From Bacteroidales bacterium (GTDB lineage Bacteria; Bacteroidota; Bacteroidia; Bacteroidales; Bacteroidaceae): DNA of 64,000 nucleotides. Below the pieces are notes generated by a model. The model was not told the DNA's origin, did no database searches, and was given only the letters and a program-made list of their open reading frames with translations. Within the stretch, counting starts at the first letter, position 1, and the number at the start of each line of letters is the position of its first letter. The stretch covers positions 1 through 64,000 of the forward strand of contig SUXQ01000011.1 of assembly GCA_015060905.1 (NCBI GenBank), in the 5' to 3' direction. This document shows positions 2,466 to 64,000 of the stretch, one piece after another. Both the position numbers and the translations under genes were made by a program.

Positions 2466-5054
2466 TTAATTTTTAAATATCAAATTTCCATTATCGCTAT
2501 CGACTGTAACAGTGTGGTTGCGGTCGATAATGCCTGCAATCAGTTGTTTGGAAAGATCGTTCAGCAGGTAGCGTTGCAAGGCTCTCTTTATCGGTCGTGC
2601 ACCAAACTGCGGGTCGAACCCTGTCTCGGCAAGCGTGCTTATTGCCTTGTCGGTAACGTGAAGGTTTACACCATTCTCACTCAAGCGTTTGCATATGTCT
2701 GCTACTTGTAAACGTACAATCTGCTCAATCTCCTCTTTGTTTAATGGGGTAAACATTATTGTTTCGTCTATTCTGTTCAGAAATTCGGGACGTATGGTCT
2801 TTTTCAACATTTCCAACAGGTTGCTTTTTGTCTCTTCGATAATCGCGTCGTGATTATTGTCGTTTATTTTTTCAAACTGCTCCTGTATGTAGCTGCTGCC
2901 CAAATTGCTTGTCATTATAATTATGGTGTTTTTAAAATTCACCACTCGTCCTTTATTGTCGGTCAGACGGCCGTCGTCGAGCACTTGCAACAGAATGTTG
3001 AATACGTCCGGGTGGGCCTTTTCAATTTCGTCGAAAAGTACCACTGAGTAGGGCTTTCTTCTGACAGCTTCGGTCAGTTGTCCGCCTTCGTCGTATCCTA
3101 CGTACCCCGGAGGGGCGCCTATGAGACGCGAAACTGAGAATTTTTCTTGATACTCGCTCATGTCTATTCGCGTCATCATTGTGTCGTCGTTGAACAGATA
3201 GGCGGCGAGTGCCTTTGCCAATTCTGTCTTTCCTACTCCGGTTGTGCCCAGGAAGATGAACGACCCGATGGGGCGTTTGGGGTCTTGAAGGCCTGCGCGG
3301 CTTCGGCGAACAGCGTCGCTGACGGCGGCAATGGCCTCTTCTTGTCCAATGACGCGTTTGTGCAATTCTTCTTCGAGCGCCAATAGTTTCATGCTTTCAC
3401 TTTGCATCATTTTGCTTACGGGGATTCCTGTCCAGCGTGATACGACGTCTGCAATATCCTCGGCGGTGACAACCTCTTTTATCATGGCGTTCCCACCTTG
3501 AGTTTCGTGGAGTGTCTTTTCTGTTTCGGCGATTCTGTCGTTAAGTTCTTTCAGTTTACCGTAGCGAATTTCGGCTACAAGGCCGTAGTTTCCTTCGCGC
3601 TCGGCTCTGTCGGCTTGTTGCTTGAGCTCTTCAATCTGTTGCTTGTCATTCTGAATGAGGTTGGCAAGCTCTTTTTCGTGCTGCCATTTTGCACGCTGGT
3701 TTTTCTCTTTTTCCTTAAGTTCGGATATCTCTTCGCTTAGTTGTGCGAGTTTATTTTCGTCTTTTTCGCGCTTGATTGCTTCGCGCTCAATTTCAAGCTG
3801 TTTGATGTGACGCGAAATTTCGTCAAGCTCTTCGGGCAGGGAATTGCGCTCCATGCGCAGCTTGGCGGCTGCTTCGTCGATAAGGTCTATGGCCTTGTCG
3901 GGCAGGAAGCGTTCGGTGATGTATCTGTCGCTGAGATTGACGGCGGCTATCAGTGCATCATCCTGTATGCTTACCTTGTGGTGACTCTCGTAGCGTTCTT
4001 TCAGTCCGCGCAGTATGGAAATTGTGCTCATCTTGTCCGGCTCGTTTACTACGACTGACTGGAAGCGGCGCTCGAGGGCCTTGTCTTTTTCGAAATATTT
4101 TTGATATTCATCGAGTGTGGTTGCGCCTATCGAGCGTAATTCGCCTCGTGCAAGGTCGGGCTTCAGAATGTTTGCAGCGTCCATTGCTCCTTCGCTTTTT
4201 CCTGCGCCGACGAGGGTGTGTATTTCGTCGATGAAAAGTATTATGTTTCCTTCGGATTTTAGTACTTCATTGACGACTGCCTTCAAGCGCTCTTCGAATT
4301 CTCCTTTGTACTTTGCGCCGGCAACGAGGGCTCCCATGTCCAATGAGTATATCTGCTTGTCGCGCAGATTCTCGGGAATGTCGCCCCGGACGATGCGGTG
4401 GGCGAGTCCTTCGACGATGGCTGTTTTTCCTGTTCCCGGCTCGCCTATGAGTATGGGGTTGTTTTTTGTGCGTCGGCTCAATATTTGTAATATGCGGCGA
4501 ATTTCGTCGTCGCGGCCGATGACCGGGTCGAGCTTTCCGCTTCGTGCAGCTTCGTTCAGGTTTATCGCATATTTGCTGAGCGATTGGTAGCTCTCCTCGG
4601 CAGTTTGCGATGTTACTTTCTCGCCTTTGCGCAGTTCGTTGATGGCGGCTTTAAGCTCTTTTTCGCCGACGCCTGCCTCTTTCAGGATTTTCGATGCTGT
4701 GCTGTTTACGGTGAGCAGGGCGAGGAACAGCGGCTCTAACGATACATATTCGTCGCCTTGTTGCTTGGCGTAGTCTGCGGCTTTTGTGAGTATTTCGTTA
4801 CTCTCGCGGCTGAGGTAGGGCTCGCCGCCTGATACTTTGGGCAGACTTTTTTCGGCTTTTTCTGCCTGCTCTTTTATCTGTTGGATGTTTGCTCCTGTTT
4901 TATGCAGAAGAAACATACTCACTTGTTCGCCTACATTGATAATGGCGTTTAGGATGTGTACAGGCTCTATGGCTTGCTGTCCTAATGATTGTACTCGGCT
5001 GATTGCGGCCTGTACTGTCTCTTGTGCTTTAATTGTAAATTTGTTGAAGTTCAT
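2466..5054 (-). CDS. clpB: ATP-dependent chaperone ClpB (protein disaggregase)
   Basis: Hsp100 disaggregase, 862 residues, the normal length. It forms cytoplasmic hexamers that thread aggregated proteins with help from DnaK. Visible domains: Clp N-domain (residues 1-145), first AAA+ module with Walker A GEPGTGKT near residue 205 and Walker [15 protein letters not shown], a long coiled-coil middle domain (about 410-530, rich in Glu/Lys/Gln), second AAA+ module with GTTGVGKT near 608 and [14 protein letters not shown], and the ClpB C-terminal domain. The [10 protein letters not shown] pore-loop motif is present. Upstream of the ATG there is an unusually good Shine-Dalgarno (AAAGGAG about 8 bases before the start), uncommon in this genome. 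No CIRCE element was found upstream. Confidence 0.98.
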
Positions 5055-56493: not shown

Positions 56494-58725
56494 TTAAAAA
56501 TCTATGCTCAGGTGTCCTAAAATGTTTGTGCCTGCTTGTGCTGCGTATCCTGCGTAATTGTAGCGGTGGCGTGTGCCGCCCTCGTCGGTGTAGTATCCGC
56601 TGCCTGCGTAGCCGTTGCTCTCGTACTCTTCGTCGAAGAGGTTGTATATTGTTGCTCCTACGGTGATGCTTTTTGTCTTTGGCAGTTTGAATGTGTAGGT
56701 CAGCGACAGATTGCTCACAAAGTATGCGTCGAGGCGGTGCTCTTCCTGCTCGACATTGCTCATATATTGCTTGCTAACATAGCTTGATTGCAGCGATGCT
56801 TCGAGGCCTTTCAGACGGTACGAGAATGTGTTGTTTACGATAATGTCGGGCGAGAATGAGAGGCGTGTGCTGCCGTGGTTAATCTCCCAACGTTCGTAAG
56901 TGTTGTCGTCGTAAAGTACTTCGGTGAAATTCTTTATGCGGTTGCGGCTGAGGGTGGCGTTTGCGTCCCAACTGAAGCCCGAGGGTAGTTTCACGCCTGC
57001 CATAAGCTCGATGCCCGCACGGTAGCTGTCGGGGATATTGGCGGCAAGCGGCTCGCCTATTTCGTTAAGCTCGCCTGTAAGCACAAGCTGGTCTTTGTAG
57101 TCCATATAATATATGTTTGCGCCTGCGTGCATGTGGTCGTTGGCGTATGTGTAGCCAAACTCGTAGTCGATGAGTTTTTCGGCGGTGGGGTGTTCGTCGA
57201 GCTTGCCGTCGGTGTAGTTGTTGCGTGTGGGTTCTTTGTGCGCCACGCTTGCCGAGGCGAACAGTCGGTTGTTGCTGTCAATCTGCCACGATGCTCCAGC
57301 CTTGGGGTTGAAAAAGTTGAATTTCTCGTCGATGGCGAGTGTTTGCAGGCTGCCGGTTGCGTCGTTCCATTTGTCGTTGCAACCGTCTATCTTGTAGCCT
57401 ATGTGACGATATTGAAGGTCGGCGTATATGTTTAGGTTGTTTGTCAGACGATAGTCGCCTTTAAGATAGATGTTCGCGTCGTTCTTTGCGCCTGTGTTGC
57501 GGTAATATTCGTGGTCGGGGATAAGGTCGCCAATGTAATTTTTGACCCACAGTACCTTCCCGAAATGTTTACCGTAGTATCTGTTGGCTCCGCCACCCAG
57601 CGAGGCACTCAGACGCTCGTCCTTATAGTTGAGCGAGAAGATTGCTCCGCCAAAATGGTTGTCCATTGCTTTGCGGCGTATAAGGTCGCTTTTTTTTATT
57701 TCTTCGCCGTTGAGGGAATATGGTTGCAGGGCATACTCAATAAGTTTGCGATTGCCTTTGTACTCTTGATAGTAACCGTCGCCTTTTGTGTAGTGCAGTC
57801 CTGTGTTTATGCTCCACGCCTCGCTGAAGTGATGGTCGAGCAGCAGTTGCCAATTTTTTTGCGTGTAGTTGTCTGTCTGCCCATCATAGTAGTGTGCTTT
57901 TCCGTTGCTGTCGGTGAACATGTATCCGCAACTGTTGTAACGGCGTCCATACTGCTGCATTTCTTCCTTGCTTGCGTAGTTCCACGCATGGTAGGTCTGC
58001 TCTTCTCCGGCGAAATTTATTAGTCGGACGGTGGTGTTGCCGCTGTAATATGCTCCCTGAATGTAATATGAGTTTAGGTTGCTCGATGCGCGGTCGATGT
58101 ATCCGTCGCTGCCTATGTTTGATAGTCGGACGTCGAAAGCCCAATGCTCCGATAGTAGTCCTGTGCCGGCGCGCAGTGTCTCTTTGTGTGTGCCGAAAGA
58201 GCCTGCCGAACCGCTGAATCCTGCGTAGGGCTGTGTGTTAAATTCGCTTGTCTGCATGTTGATGCTTGCGCCGAATGCTCCCGCGCCGTTGGTGGATGTT
58301 CCTGCTCCGCGCTGAATCTGCACGTCTTTTACCGACGATGCAAGGTCGGGGATATTTACCCAAAAGACTGTGTGGCTCTCGGCGTCGTTTACGGGAATGC
58401 CGTTGGCTGTCACGTTTATGCGTGTGGCGTCTGTGCCGCGTATGCGCAGGCTTGTGTAGCCTATTCCTGCTCCCGCGTCGCTTGTTACTACCGCGCTCGG
58501 CGTCATTTTTACAAGGTAAGGAAAGTCTACTCCCGTATTTTGCTTTTTAAGCTCTTCGCGGCCTATGTTCGTGTAGGCAACGGGGGTAGTCTTTGTCGCG
58601 CGTATCGACATTATTTCCACTTCCTGCAAACTGTTGTGCAGGCTGTCTTTCGCTCCCTCTTGTGCATTGAGCAACGAGGGCAGGGTTGCAATCAGAAGGC
58701 AACCGAGCAATGTTCTTTTTTTCAT
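56494..58725 (-). CDS. TonB-dependent outer-membrane receptor (thiamine uptake)
   Basis: 743 residues from 58725 (MKKRTLLGCLLIATLPSLLN signal); an in-frame ATG at 58737 is less likely. Plug domain about 40-160 (RIRGTDATRINVTANGIPVN, then VKDVQIQRGAGTSTNGAGAF) and a 22-strand barrel. A TonB box-like segment is not clear. First gene after the TPP riboswitch and three bases before pnuT, so it likely imports thiamine or its phosphates. Confidence 0.93.
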   Translation of the reverse strand: MKKRTLLGCLLIATLPSLLNAQEGAKDSLHNSLQEVEIMSIRATKTTPVAYTNIGREELKKQNTGVDFPYLVKMTPSAVVTSDAGAGIGYTSLRIRGTDATRINVTANGIPVNDAESHTVFWVNIPDLASSVKDVQIQRGAGTSTNGAGAFGASINMQTSEFNTQPYAGFSGSAGSFGTHKETLRAGTGLLSEHWAFDVRLSNIGSDGYIDRASSNLNSYYIQGAYYSGNTTVRLINFAGEEQTYHAWNYASKEEMQQYGRRYNSCGYMFTDSNGKAHYYDGQTDNYTQKNWQLLLDHHFSEAWSINTGLHYTKGDGYYQEYKGNRKLIEYALQPYSLNGEEIKKSDLIRRKAMDNHFGGAIFSLNYKDERLSASLGGGANRYYGKHFGKVLWVKNYIGDLIPDHEYYRNTGAKNDANIYLKGDYRLTNNLNIYADLQYRHIGYKIDGCNDKWNDATGSLQTLAIDEKFNFFNPKAGASWQIDSNNRLFASASVAHKEPTRNNYTDGKLDEHPTAEKLIDYEFGYTYANDHMHAGANIYYMDYKDQLVLTGELNEIGEPLAANIPDSYRAGIELMAGVKLPSGFSWDANATLSRNRIKNFTEVLYDDNTYERWEINHGSTRLSFSPDIIVNNTFSYRLKGLEASLQSSYVSKQYMSNVEQEEHRLDAYFVSNLSLTYTFKLPKTKSITVGATIYNLFDEEYESNGYAGSGYYTDEGGTRHRYNYAGYAAQAGTNILGHLSIDF

Positions 58726-58841
58726 TGCAATTTCCAATTTTTGTGGAGAATGGGGTAAAAAAATAAATCCTCCATGCTCCGTTGTTAAACAGAAAATGGG
58801 GATTTTTCCTGCATTGCTTATATAAAAATTGGAATGTGTAT

Positions 58842-58921
58842 ATAAGCTCTTTCCTACGCCGGCATTACCCGGATCAGGTTCTTGGGTATGATCTCAGCCC
58901 ATGTTTTAAGGCACCCCTTAT
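58842..58921 (-). promoter_or_regulatory. TPP riboswitch (THI element)
   Basis: Minus strand carries the diagnostic pieces in order: GGGGTGCC, GGGCTGAGATCATACCC, GAACCTGATCCGGGTAATGC, CGGCGTAGGAAAG. P1 can form between 58917-58921 and 58842-58846 (ATAAG with CTTAT). The same 3' P1 strand can pair instead in a 9-base-pair hairpin (58816-58824 with 58839-58847), giving two exclusive states as expected for an expression platform. Confidence 0.97.
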
Positions 58922-58934
58922 TTGAAATCTGTGG

Positions 58935-61163: not shown

Positions 61164-62081
61164 CTATTCTATTTTGAATGTTTTATTTTCTTTGGCCAGA
61201 TAGGTGTGTGGGAATATTTCGCATGCTTCGGCGAGGAGTTGTGTCTCGTCGTCGTATCGCGATGAGAAGTGTCCGATGATGAGTTTTTTTACTTCTGCTT
61301 CGCGGGCTGTTGTTGCTGCTTGTCGGGCGGTGCTGTGAAAGGTTTCTTTGGCTCTTCCCTTTTCTTTGTCGGCAAAGGTTGCTTCGTGGTACAAAAGGTC
61401 TATGCCTTTGATTTTTTCTATTATTCCGGGGCAGGGGGCTGTGTCCGAGCAGTATGCGTAGCTGCGTGAACGGGTGGGTGGGGTTGTCAGTCGCTCGTTG
61501 GGGATTATTTCTCCGTCGGGGGTGACGTAGTCCTCGCCCTCTCGCAATTTGGGACGTGCGTAGGTGGGGATGTTGTAAAACTCGAGCATTCCCGGCTTTA
61601 TGTGTCTCTTCTTGGGTTTTTCGCTTATGAGGAATCCGCAGCAGGGGATTCTGTGGTTGAGCGGAAGGGTTTCTACTGTTATTGCTTTATTTTCGAAGAT
61701 TACTTTCTGTTCGTCGGGGTTAATGTCGTGCAGTATTACTTCGTATTCCATGCCTTTACAGAAAAACTCGAGCTGTGGGGTCAGAAGGGTGCGCAGCATG
61801 GGGTGGGCGTATATGTGCAGGGGCATTTTGCGTCCTAAAAGCCCGAATGTAGATATCATGCCTATAAGCCCGAAGCAGTGGTCGCCGTGAAGATGGGTGA
61901 TAAAGACGTGGTTGATGCGTGCAAAGTGTTGGTGCGATTTTCTTATTTGCAGTTGTGTGCCTTCGCCGCAATCTATCATCAGTAGTTCGTTGCCTATTCT
62001 TATTATTTGCGAACTTGAATTGTGGCGCATTGTGGGTAGTGCCGAGCCGCATCCTAATATATGTACTTCGAATTGTTCCAT
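61164..62081 (-). CDS. rnz: Ribonuclease Z
   Basis: Metallo-beta-lactamase-fold endonuclease that cuts tRNA 3' trailers. 305 residues: VHILGCGSALPTMRHNSSSQ start, metal motif THLHGDHCFG (His63, His65, Asp67, His68), the flexible-arm region, LLYHEATF (Asp replaced in type), and C-terminal IIGHFSSRY. Normal length. Confidence 0.95.
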   Translation of the reverse strand: MEQFEVHILGCGSALPTMRHNSSSQIIRIGNELLMIDCGEGTQLQIRKSHQHFARINHVFITHLHGDHCFGLIGMISTFGLLGRKMPLHIYAHPMLRTLLTPQLEFFCKGMEYEVILHDINPDEQKVIFENKAITVETLPLNHRIPCCGFLISEKPKKRHIKPGMLEFYNIPTYARPKLREGEDYVTPDGEIIPNERLTTPPTRSRSYAYCSDTAPCPGIIEKIKGIDLLYHEATFADKEKGRAKETFHSTARQAATTAREAEVKKLIIGHFSSRYDDETQLLAEACEIFPHTYLAKENKTFKIE

Positions 62082-62101
62082 TTGTTACTTTGCATTTGTT
62101 G

Positions 62102-62109
62102 CAAAGGTA
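62102..62109 (-). promoter_or_regulatory. -7 element (TACCTTTG) of rnz
   Basis: TACCTTTG, about 20 bases before the rnz start; no good -33 seen. The stretch 62110-62241 shows nothing else. Confidence 0.5.
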
Positions 62110-62241
62110 ATGGTTTTTGACGGATTTTTAGAATAAAATGTTGTTGGCTAAAAGTGAAAAATTAATAGAGGGACAAATATAAGTTTTATTACGAAGTTAA
62201 ATAGGTTGAATTAATATATTTGAAAGATTTACAAAAAAGTT

Positions 62242-62271
62242 TTGCTATTAACATAAAAGTATATAATTTTG
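62242..62271 (+). promoter_or_regulatory. Consensus promoter with no adjacent protein gene
   Basis: TTG (62242-62244), exactly 19 bases, TAATTTTG (62264-62271). Transcription would start near 62278, some 330 bases before the next protein start, in front of a series of hairpins. Confidence 0.78.
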
Positions 62272-62277
62272 TAACAT

Positions 62278-62557
62278 CTCGATTAGCCCATTAGGGTAAG
62301 TTGGGGTAATTTTTTTGGTAAAAGGACGTTTACGAACGTTTTCTTCTGATGTAGAATCTCGCAAATTCAAAGCCAAGAAGAAACGCAACCGAAGCGTCCA
62401 CATTGGGTGTATTGTATCTATATTTATTCTAGTAAATATGGAAGTTCTACAATATGTCACGACGTGGGCTAACTCGAGTTGTTTATCCTTGGCAAGGCAA
62501 TGCGAGAGCCCTACATCGGGATAAACAAGAGGTAGAGCTTCCCACGTCTTATTTTTT
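62278..62557 (+). ncRNA. Candidate structured RNA (free ncRNA or long leader)
   Basis: Four successive foldable segments in ~270 bases. (1) 62287-62303: TTA/CCC with GGG/TAA. (2) 62324-62399: GGACG with CGTCC enclosing CGTTTTCTTCT (62337-62347) with AGAAGAAACG (62376-62385) and GAAT with ATTC. (3) 62410-62454: TATTGTA with TACAATA enclosing ATATTTA with TAAATAT and a six-base loop. (4) 62461-62548: GACGTGGG with CCCACGTC enclosing TTGTTTATCC (62479-62488) with GGATAAACAA (62519-62528). TTATTTTTT follows at 62549-62557. A weak 69-codon frame crosses the region without family features. No known riboswitch, 6S, tmRNA, SRP or RNase P motif was recognised. Confidence 0.55.
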
Positions 62558-62607
62558 CATATTGCAAACATGACCGGTATCGGGGAGCTGAAGGTCAGGT
62601 TAGAACT

Positions 62608-62976
62608 ATGAAAAAAATATATGCAAACTTAGAGAAGGGTATTAAAAATTTATCCATCTTATTCATTGTATCCCTAACATTATCAACATTCTCTTGTTCA
62701 AGTGAGAAAGATTATGAATTTTTCTCTGCAATTAATGGCACAGTGACTGACTATGAGACAGGTGCTCCGCTCAGTAATGTCAGTATACTGCTATCCCCGG
62801 GCGGGATTACCAAAATGACGAACGAGGATGGATGCTTTTCTTTTGAGGAATTAGAGCCTCAACAGTATAATCTTGTTATTCAGAAAGTAGGTTATCAACC
62901 TAATCGTAAGAGTGTCACTGCAATTAGTGGAGAAACTGTTAGTGTGCAAATAACTATGAATAAAATTCCACAATAA
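62608..62976 (+). CDS. Small lipoprotein with carboxypeptidase-regulatory-like domain
   Basis: 122 residues. Signal/lipobox LTLSTFSC (Cys30), then one carboxypeptidase-regulatory-like beta-sandwich (INGTVTDYETGAPLSNVSIL, LEPQQYNLVIQKVGYQPNRK). Such modules occur on Bacteroidota surface lipoproteins. 79 bases before a longer lipoprotein gene with the same module, so they are probably one unit, possibly transcribed from 62242-62271. Confidence 0.82.
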   Translation: MKKIYANLEKGIKNLSILFIVSLTLSTFSCSSEKDYEFFSAINGTVTDYETGAPLSNVSILLSPGGITKMTNEDGCFSFEELEPQQYNLVIQKVGYQPNRKSVTAISGETVSVQITMNKIPQ

Positions 62977-63055: not shown

Positions 63056-64000
63056 ATGAAAAAAATTATTTGTGCACTGTTTTTGTGTTTGTTGGCAGTA
63101 GCTTGTACTAAAGAGTCTGAAGAATTTGAGAAAAATTGTACAATTGTAGGTAGTGTGTCCGATTATGTAACAGGCGAGCCTGTGTCGGTAGTTAATGTAG
63201 GATTATATTATGAAACTTATGATTCAGTTCTTTACGATTATAGTTACAATGCAGCTTATGAATATTATGGCTACGATACTATTTACGACAAAGATTTGGA
63301 ATGGTATGACCTTGTTGGTCGCACTATTACCGGAAGTGACGGTAGTTTCAAGTTTGATAATCTTACAGAGGGAGAATATGCTTTGGTAATAGAAAAAGAT
63401 GGTTACCGAGCAAATTTGGAATATATTAATGTTCGGTACAATAATGGACAAGGTGTCAGAACTCATTTGTTGATAGAGCGTTTGCCGGCAATTGTAACAA
63501 CCGACCGCAAAGAAATAGATTTTGGTAGCGATAAAAGTAATAATACTTTATCATTCAATATTGTAAACAGTTCCTACGAGGACCTTGAGTGGAGCATTGA
63601 AGAGAACTGTGAATGGATAAAAGAGGTTAAACCTTCGACCGGTTTACTCCGTTACGGAAAGACAGAGACAATAGTAGTAGTTATTGACCGCGAAAAACTC
63701 GAAGGTGGATATAATCATTCAGTGATAGTGGTACGTTCGTCTAATGGAAGTTCCGAGATTGACGTGTATGCTTATGGCGAGTATGTATCTTTACCGACGC
63801 TCGAAACATACGATGCAACAAATGTAAAGGCTTATTCTGCAACGCTCAATGGCGAAATTGTCAATTTGGGAACACCCGAATATACCGAGCGTGGCTTTGT
63901 GTACTCAACAACAGCTACCCCTACGATAGAAAATTGCATAGCAAAGGTTACAATACCCAAAAGTGTTGTAAAAAAGTATAGTTGCGATATAAAAAATTTG
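63056..64000 (+). CDS. BACON-domain surface lipoprotein, 3' end outside the window
   Basis: 315 codons to the window edge. Lipobox CLLAVAC (Cys17), a carboxypeptidase-regulatory-like module about 25-140 (CTIVGSVSDYVTGEPVSVVN ... FDNLTEGEYALVIEKDGYRA), a BACON domain about 145-240 (ITTDRKEIDFGS-like strand, then WSIEENCEWIKEVKPSTG), then the start of a fibronectin-like repeat (VKAYSATLNGEIVNLGTPEY). BACON domains are common in carbohydrate- or mucin-contacting surface proteins. Catalytic or binding domains further on are not visible. Confidence 0.85.
   Translation, partial: MKKIICALFLCLLAVACTKESEEFEKNCTIVGSVSDYVTGEPVSVVNVGLYYETYDSVLYDYSYNAAYEYYGYDTIYDKDLEWYDLVGRTITGSDGSFKFDNLTEGEYALVIEKDGYRANLEYINVRYNNGQGVRTHLLIERLPAIVTTDRKEIDFGSDKSNNTLSFNIVNSSYEDLEWSIEENCEWIKEVKPSTGLLRYGKTETIVVVIDREKLEGGYNHSVIVVRSSNGSSEIDVYAYGEYVSLPTLETYDATNVKAYSATLNGEIVNLGTPEYTERGFVYSTTATPTIENCIAKVTIPKSVVKKYSCDIKNL

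Follow-up and report, generated by a model that had tools for sequence, protein, structure and literature searches.

A putative family of large leader RNAs in Bacteroidales with covarying long-range helices and a terminator-like end

The window, a stretch of 64,000 nucleotides from a Bacteroidales bacterium (contig SUXQ01000011.1), carries at 62276-62600 what we propose, with moderate confidence, to be one copy of a new Bacteroidales family of large cis-acting leader RNAs, comparable to attenuators or orphan riboswitches. The element is a structured RNA, and not a chance fold or an open reading frame (ORF). The family, its helices and its position in cis are well supported.

Locus, relatives and novelty of the element

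The element is situated in the intergenic region 62082-62608, with a minus-strand gene on one side (61164-62081, ribonuclease Z-like by eye) and two plus-strand lipoprotein-like genes on the other. The first of these (62608-62976) encodes 122 amino acids with a carboxypeptidase-regulatory-like domain (PF13620, E 8.2e-17), and the second (63056-64000; PF07603, E 7.1e-10) continues beyond the window end, its full length of 549 amino acids having been taken from stretch L247; the two genes are likely to form one operon. The plus-strand promoter (62241-62271) consists of TTTG at 62241-62244, a spacer of 19 nucleotides and TAATTTTG at 62264-62271, which we take to be the Bacteroidales consensus, and transcription would be expected to start at about 62276-62280. 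The first-pass annotation had described a full-consensus promoter here, and the sequence agrees with this, as does the enrichment of TAnnTTTG, which was present upstream of 114 of 168 members (as compared with 19 of 168 with shuffled upstream DNA) and was located 161-230 nt ahead of the 3' domain in 98 of these 114. The promoter was absent from the output of a general sigma-70 scan, which was built for another consensus. From the promoter to the gene at 62608 the leader measures about 330 nt, which would be long, given that 5' UTRs of Bacteroides thetaiotaomicron are mostly short, with a median of 32 nt, according to passages of PMC7366714.

The search for relatives was performed with blastn, using 62230-62620 as a query against 61 genomes. 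Eight genomes of the genus yielded copies of about 240 bases with 66-76% identity, and one genome of another family yielded two pieces with 76-77% identity; 20 stretches with copies were collected and aligned after this search. Thirteen sequences of the 3' domain were used to build a first covariance model, R1. R2 was trained on matches of R1 and the broader model R3 on matches of R2, and covariation counts based on these models therefore lean to the model; alignment A9, from which R3 was built, contains one antisense shadow of L230. Within the genus, R1 was positive for 40 of 44 genomes at E <= 0.01; in a sample of the order, at E <= 1e-4, it was positive for 70 of 393 genomes and R3 for 96 of 393, the latter covering 56 of 207 genera. 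Since the class sample gave 15 of 395 genomes with R3, of which nine fell in the order or closer and the other six beyond it (E 7.7e-7 to 8.1e-5), and the phylum sample only 3 of 395 with R2, the element is chiefly one of Bacteroidales.

A DNA-pattern scan of named genomes matched at least 115 stretches. Among the 80 pattern matches listed, most were assigned to Bacteroides, Prevotella/Prevotellaceae, Bacteroidaceae, Muribaculaceae, Parabacteroides, Phocaeicola, Xylanibacter or plain Bacteroidales, a few to uncultured bacterium only, and one to a Clostridia bin. Contig JAJPZA010000132.1 (L122), labelled as Clostridia and perhaps misbinned, carries the RNA at 3982-4083 together with a typical gene for a Tat-like small protein. 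Members with the kissing loop TCTGG../..CCAGA (L242, L243, L244, L245, L246 and L248) are invisible to the pattern scan, and the prevalence stated is therefore a lower bound. In the window's own genome, R2 placed 14 copies at E <= 1e-5 and a fifteenth at 0.0056; those read are strongly diverged. The four named isolates carried five copies (Bacteroides clarus YIT 12056, a cultured commensal, with R2), four (Phocaeicola massiliensis), three (Xylanibacter rarus) and two (B. bouchesdurhonensis). Given its presence in about one quarter of the sampled Bacteroidales genomes and the 14 copies in the window's genome, this may be a common, as yet undescribed regulatory RNA of gut bacteria. It should be added that L106 harbours two copies 1.2 kb apart (2749-2853 and 3953-4057, minus strand), with a short LytTR-like protein (by eye) behind one and a large secreted-looking protein behind the other. 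The 3' domain is in part a palindrome, in the window (62458-62556) as in other members, and R1 also scores the opposite strand in some members. The 168 instances include one antisense shadow (L145, 4991, plus strand), which is also within the coding counts and was excluded from the alignment of 120 sequences (A10) and from the tests with 164 members.

None of the Rfam 15 covariance models reached its gathering score over the element in the window, and no family was placed at the element in 18 other member-bearing loci, in line with the first-pass remark that no known RNA family could be matched; weak rows at E <= 10 (BsrC, mir-460 and sR33; E 3.2-8.4) were taken as chance. The sole match at gathering score in the window is a TPP riboswitch (58833-58928, minus strand, 57.6 bits) upstream of a gene at 56494-58737 (minus strand), TonB-dependent receptor-like by eye and perhaps a thiamine transporter. 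By the tests run in this analysis, the RNA is new both as a family and as a fold. We recognised no paper describing the leader RNA, as far as the literature was covered; PMC8040213, in its sections covered here, reports 16,482 candidate models, and these supplementary models may include a fragment of it. A table of PMC2864571 gives Bacteroides-2 and GUCCY-hairpin without an Rfam number, which places them outside the Rfam comparison made here, and no such RNA is named in the covered parts of that paper or of the listed papers on ornate RNAs. The main texts of PMC11109978 and PMC8632094 did not return Bacteroides, Prevotella, Parabacteroides or Porphyromonas in a term search.

Fold and covariation

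The folding energy of the element is -94.1 kcal/mol, as compared with -65.15 +/- 4.51 kcal/mol in 200 shuffles (z -6.4); the 3' part folded alone gave z -2.3, with 5 of 200 shuffles equally good. Covariation was assessed in three ways. For the blind scan, 165 of the 168 instances were aligned and all column pairs were scored with no structure hypothesis, against a null of 12 alignments with the same number of substitutions spread over a tree (E floor 0.042). Thirteen pairs exceeded every null value: helix X contributed five, hairpin 1 two, helices Y and G one each, and the kissing loop two together with two off-by-one neighbours; pairs of P1, P2, DE, P6 and PKd stayed below threshold in these 165 sequences, and column 90 was at the E floor with two partners, those of X and of hairpin 1. 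The structure was further written on the window row of A10, a plain MAFFT alignment of 120 diverse members. Its 57 pairs are formed in 92.8% of cells, and 45 of them have changed on both sides, with 793 such cells as compared with 267.6 +/- 14.2 in shuffles; none of the 500 shuffles attained any of five measures, and partners moved by 1-3 columns pair in 39-48% of cells. Changes across A10 follow RNA pairing, G-U included. Finally, own strands were compared with strands of other members in 164 members, using 100 permutations and no alignment columns, and treating members as independent. Helix X of at least 5 bp was found in 162 of 164 members (46 with permuted partners, largest 63) and helix Y of at least 5 bp in 163 (50, largest 64), and the kissing loop, P2, P6, G, P1 and DE were each above the largest of the permutations. 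Covariation in homologues, put forward at first pass as a check on the RNA, is accordingly present in A10 and in the blind scan, a home-made procedure similar to R-scape.

All features named below are on the plus strand. The 5' hairpin right behind the promoter (62276-62307) comes from the minimum free energy fold and is paired in 66.7% of cells, barely over expectation. It is followed by the 5' domain (62324-62399), composed of P1 (62324-62331/62392-62399), P2 (62340-62346/62377-62383) and hairpin 1 (62354-62356/62366-62368, loop 62357-62365), which are paired in 89.1, 85.0 and 93.9% of cells across the 120 sequences and together show both-side changes in 16 of 18 pairs; P1 and P2 are frayed at their ends. 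P1 was assigned as GGACGUUU with AAACGUCC because column pair 61-139 is paired in 97% and column pair 61-291, of the rejected GGACGT/ACGTCTT version, in only 75%; the latter still exceeds permutation (112 of 164 vs 82, largest 91) and is kept as a weak alternative. Two other candidates were set aside. A local hairpin, ACGTT-UACG-AACGT, is 93.5% paired, yet visibly absent from the GGTGT subgroup, and RNAalifold on the first 21 sequences returned 22 pairs, of which only two showed both-side changes, and did not recover the long-range helices.

The 3' domain (62461-62557) is enclosed by the closing stem DE, formed by GACGTGGG at 62461-62468 and CCCACGTC at 62541-62548 (98.6% paired), and contains P6 (62483-62488/62519-62524, 99.0%) and hairpin 2 (62496-62498/62508-62510, 99.2%); the U-tract at 62549-62557 corresponds to a T-rich tract across members. 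Between the domains there is a variable arm (62405-62456), which differs in length and sequence in the alignments and forms its own helix of at least 6 bp in 142 of 164 members (115 permuted, largest 125). The two domains are connected by helix X (62349-62353/62512-62516, 91.9% paired, both-side changes in 5/5 pairs), helix Y (62372-62376/62489-62493), helix G (GCAAC 62385-62389/GTTGT 62478-62482, 98.5% paired, both-side changes in 4/5 pairs) and a kissing loop of 7 bp (62357-62363/62501-62507, 98.2% paired). In A10 only 66% of the cells of Y pair, because its strands are poorly aligned there: letters are present in most rows for only three of its five pairs, and in 1 and 8 of 120 rows for the other two. 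Kissing-loop variants that stay complementary comprise TCTCGC/GCGAGA, CTTCGC/GCGAAG, TTCTAGC/GCTAGAA, TCTGGAC/GTCCAGA and TCTGGAAA/TTTCCAGA, as well as TCTGGTAAA/TTTACCAGA from a genome outside the order (G806).

In X, the strand that follows the 5' side of P2 pairs with the one that precedes the 3' side of P6; in Y, the strand that precedes the 3' side of P2 pairs with the one that follows the 5' side of P6. In a joint drawing, the first four-way junction would consist of P2, X, P6 and Y, and the second of X, hairpin 1, Y and hairpin 2, whose loops kiss. As no nucleotide is used twice in the 57 pairs, all of them can coexist, and we infer from these disjoint covarying helices that they do so in one molecule. 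The four consecutive hairpins drawn at first pass were not recovered; the blind covariation scan replaced them with a fold in which X, Y, G and the kissing loop are long-range. The element also runs beyond the 3' boundary given there (62557), on to a hairpin ahead of the start codon (62572-62596). This hairpin is formed by GACC 62572-62575 and GGTC 62593-62596; its three central pairs are paired in 75-85%, barely over expectation, and, like the 5' hairpin, it shows little covariation.

Downstream genes and the terminator-like end

A same-strand ORF starts within 170 nt downstream in 155 of 161 members, at a median of 65 nt past the 3' domain (161 being the 168 members less seven at contig ends, with ORFs chosen mechanically); one of the six remaining members is the antisense shadow. 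Of the 119 members with sufficient flanking sequence, 87 pass a stricter rule (ORF of at least 100 aa, start 20-130 nt downstream); the divergent control (upstream, opposite strand) gave 17 of 119, and random places gave 253 of 1190. A crude rule applied to the N-termini of the 155 downstream proteins classified 59 as Sec/TM-like, 25 as lipoprotein-like and 11 as Tat-like, with 60 in none of these classes. Pfam analysis was done for 145 of the 155 (omitting three of >1200 aa, four doubtful ORFs and three others) and assigned 90 families, the commonest being BspA-type LRR with nine proteins. No metabolic theme was common to these 145 proteins, which does not fit a riboswitch for a pathway metabolite and is compatible with one for a global signal.

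In the window's genome, five of the 11 copies whose surroundings were read (of 14) precede BspA-like proteins by eye, and the one of these five that was scanned matched PF13306 (E 3.7e-131). Two further targets recur. Proteins of 70-82 aa starting with MHIG or similar occur at L045, L065, L069, L083, L090, L092, L124, L158, L188 and L211; of three scanned, one came near HTH_26 (E 2.2e-4, just below the cut-off) and two had no firm match, and such a protein might act as a regulator in connection with the RNA. Small proteins with a Tat-like N-terminus (RRxFFKK) occur at L036, L039, L118, L119, L122, L139, L140, L141, L155, L164 and L179; at L036 and L039 their gene is followed by radical SAM-like ORFs (by eye), and the one at L119 has no Pfam family. 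Among the targets are BspA-like LRR proteins, lipoproteins, small Tat-like proteins and DNA-binding regulators, which are likely to be involved in contact with hosts and competitors.

The 3' domain ends like an intrinsic terminator. The tract after DE averages 6.6 T of 8 in 151 of the 168 members, which together with the pairing of DE bears out the stem of GACGTGGG/CCCACGTC and U-rich tail noted at first pass. DE is GC-rich, and at about 70 nt the loop it encloses is unusually large for an intrinsic terminator; a terminator scan permitting loops of only 3-8 did not have DE and the U-tract in its output. An alternative pairing, PKd (62536-62589), would join AGCTTCCC at 62536-62543 with GGGGAGCT at 62582-62589, the latter strand lying in the loop of the hairpin at 62572-62596 and ending 18 nt ahead of the start codon in the window. 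In an ungapped permutation test PKd of at least 7 bp was found in 45% of 151 members, as compared with 16% permuted (largest 22%) and 1.8% with shuffled downstream DNA (largest 5.3%); the other 55% lack a 7 bp PKd by this test. PKd overlaps DE at CCC 62541-62543, and since both pairings are kept and share these nucleotides, the RNA may be suggested to have at least two states. The second strand of PKd is made after the U-tract; PKd may therefore mark or lock a read-through state and cannot itself prevent termination. An upstream antiterminator by exchange between the P1 3' strand and the DE 5' strand is suggestive only (128 of 164 members vs 114 permuted, largest 124).

Proposed mechanism, alternatives and known systems

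Promoter and leader recur together before many unrelated genes, often with secreted, lipoprotein or regulatory products. As for termination, switching, transcript ends and signal, we infer the following from the arrangement of the element. The 5' and 3' domains would be held together by X, Y, G and the kissing loop, giving two four-way junctions with X and Y in common. If DE forms right before the U-tract, transcription would stop there; if it fails to form, polymerase would continue through the gene, leaving the CUCCC strand free to pair with GGGAG in the loop of the hairpin that precedes the start codon. The core may act as a sensor that biases this choice in response to a general signal, be it a small molecule, an ion, an RNA-binding protein or the translation state. 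The RNA would thus probably decide whether the gene behind it is read, and as a kind it resembles a leader-type attenuator or an orphan riboswitch. Knowledge of the signal would open a regulon invisible from protein regulators. More tentatively, the core could be a natural double-crossover tile reminiscent of RNA origami, with stacks P2-X-hairpin 1 and P6-Y-hairpin 2 lying side by side, linked through the two four-way junctions and closed off by the kissing loop. It would be a new class of natural RNA in which one sensor for a global signal, coupled to a switchable terminator, serves many unrelated surface and regulatory genes; we consider this possible and rather doubtful. Should the helices coexist, the fold would stand out among natural RNAs for its pair of linked four-way junctions and its kissing loop.

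The first-pass annotation had left a free small RNA and a leader as alternatives, and it is the leader that is favoured by the downstream ORFs (155 of 161; 87 of 119 against 17 of 119) and by PKd. A free RNA would end at the U-tract and act in trans, the gene being fed only by read-through. In its favour are the element's own promoter, compact fold, terminator-like end and many copies per genome, as the FopS family of B. thetaiotaomicron has (14 members, as given in a portion of PMC11697453); the closeness of same-strand ORF starts, the covariation of PKd with sequence past the U-tract and the matching of kissing-loop strands within each copy, which leaves no obvious conserved free seed, all speak against it, and we regard it as unlikely. 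Control of translation or mRNA stability in a leader that is always read through, with PKd and its hairpin governing ribosome access or decay and the U-tract being no terminator, would account for the covariation of PKd and its location 18 nt from the start codon. However, a T-rich tract after a GC-rich stem is strongly kept and would be unneeded for this purpose, and we regard this reading as unlikely.

There is a slight chance that the element alters RNA polymerase for transcription of the downstream operon, by processive antitermination or anti-polarity, as would suit a promoter-proximal, ornate RNA before many unrelated genes of no metabolic theme; against this stand the terminator-like end within the element itself and the short ORFs behind many members (ORFs, not operons, having been counted). 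The core is not coding, and a DNA-level or coding feature, such as a mobile repeat, a recombination site or a small protein, is very improbable. In its favour are the several copies per genome, the ORF at 62315-62524 and a plus-strand frame open through the core in 19 of 165 members, as compared with 3 of 165 in one shuffle. On the other hand, the copies read in the window's genome are strongly diverged, changes across A10 follow RNA pairing including G-U, and core lengths in 165 members are distributed over all three residues modulo 3 (49/52/64). The frame of 62315-62524, conservation of which would have counted against the RNA at first pass, is open in 28 of 165 members and not conserved, which upholds the earlier view that the stretch encodes no convincing protein. 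The DNA pattern had no match in viral contigs, nor had one member used as a blastn query in plasmid and phage collections.

Among known systems, cobalamin riboswitches are large leader RNAs in which a kissing loop is linked to the expression platform. The present leader RNA is likewise large and has a kissing loop; unlike in cobalamin riboswitches, this loop connects two hairpins that are part of linked four-way junctions and the downstream genes belong to no single pathway, and the cobalamin riboswitch family gave no Rfam row over the element even at E <= 10. EAR, put and LoaP-dependent antitermination RNAs are promoter-proximal and act on the operon behind them. The leader RNA shares this promoter-proximal position and differs from them in its terminator-like closing stem and in matching no Rfam family. 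ROOL, GOLLD, OLE and raiA are large, highly structured bacterial RNAs, as described in part of PMC12286853; in contrast to them, the element is a leader before diverse genes, with several copies per genome and no Rfam match. FopS/GibS are, as far as the covered part of PMC11697453 goes, likewise a multicopy RNA family of Bacteroidales. FopS is described there as a single-stranded 5' stretch (R1 seed) with a terminator hairpin and is said to be deposited in Rfam; the leader RNA has a different fold and no Rfam match, and FopS is set apart from it by this description. Bacteroidales-1 (RF01693, 6S-like) is also a structured RNA of Bacteroidales and is distinct from the family proposed here, as both occur at separate places in L177, RF01693 at 1052-1228 and the 3' domain of the leader RNA at 3725-3823.
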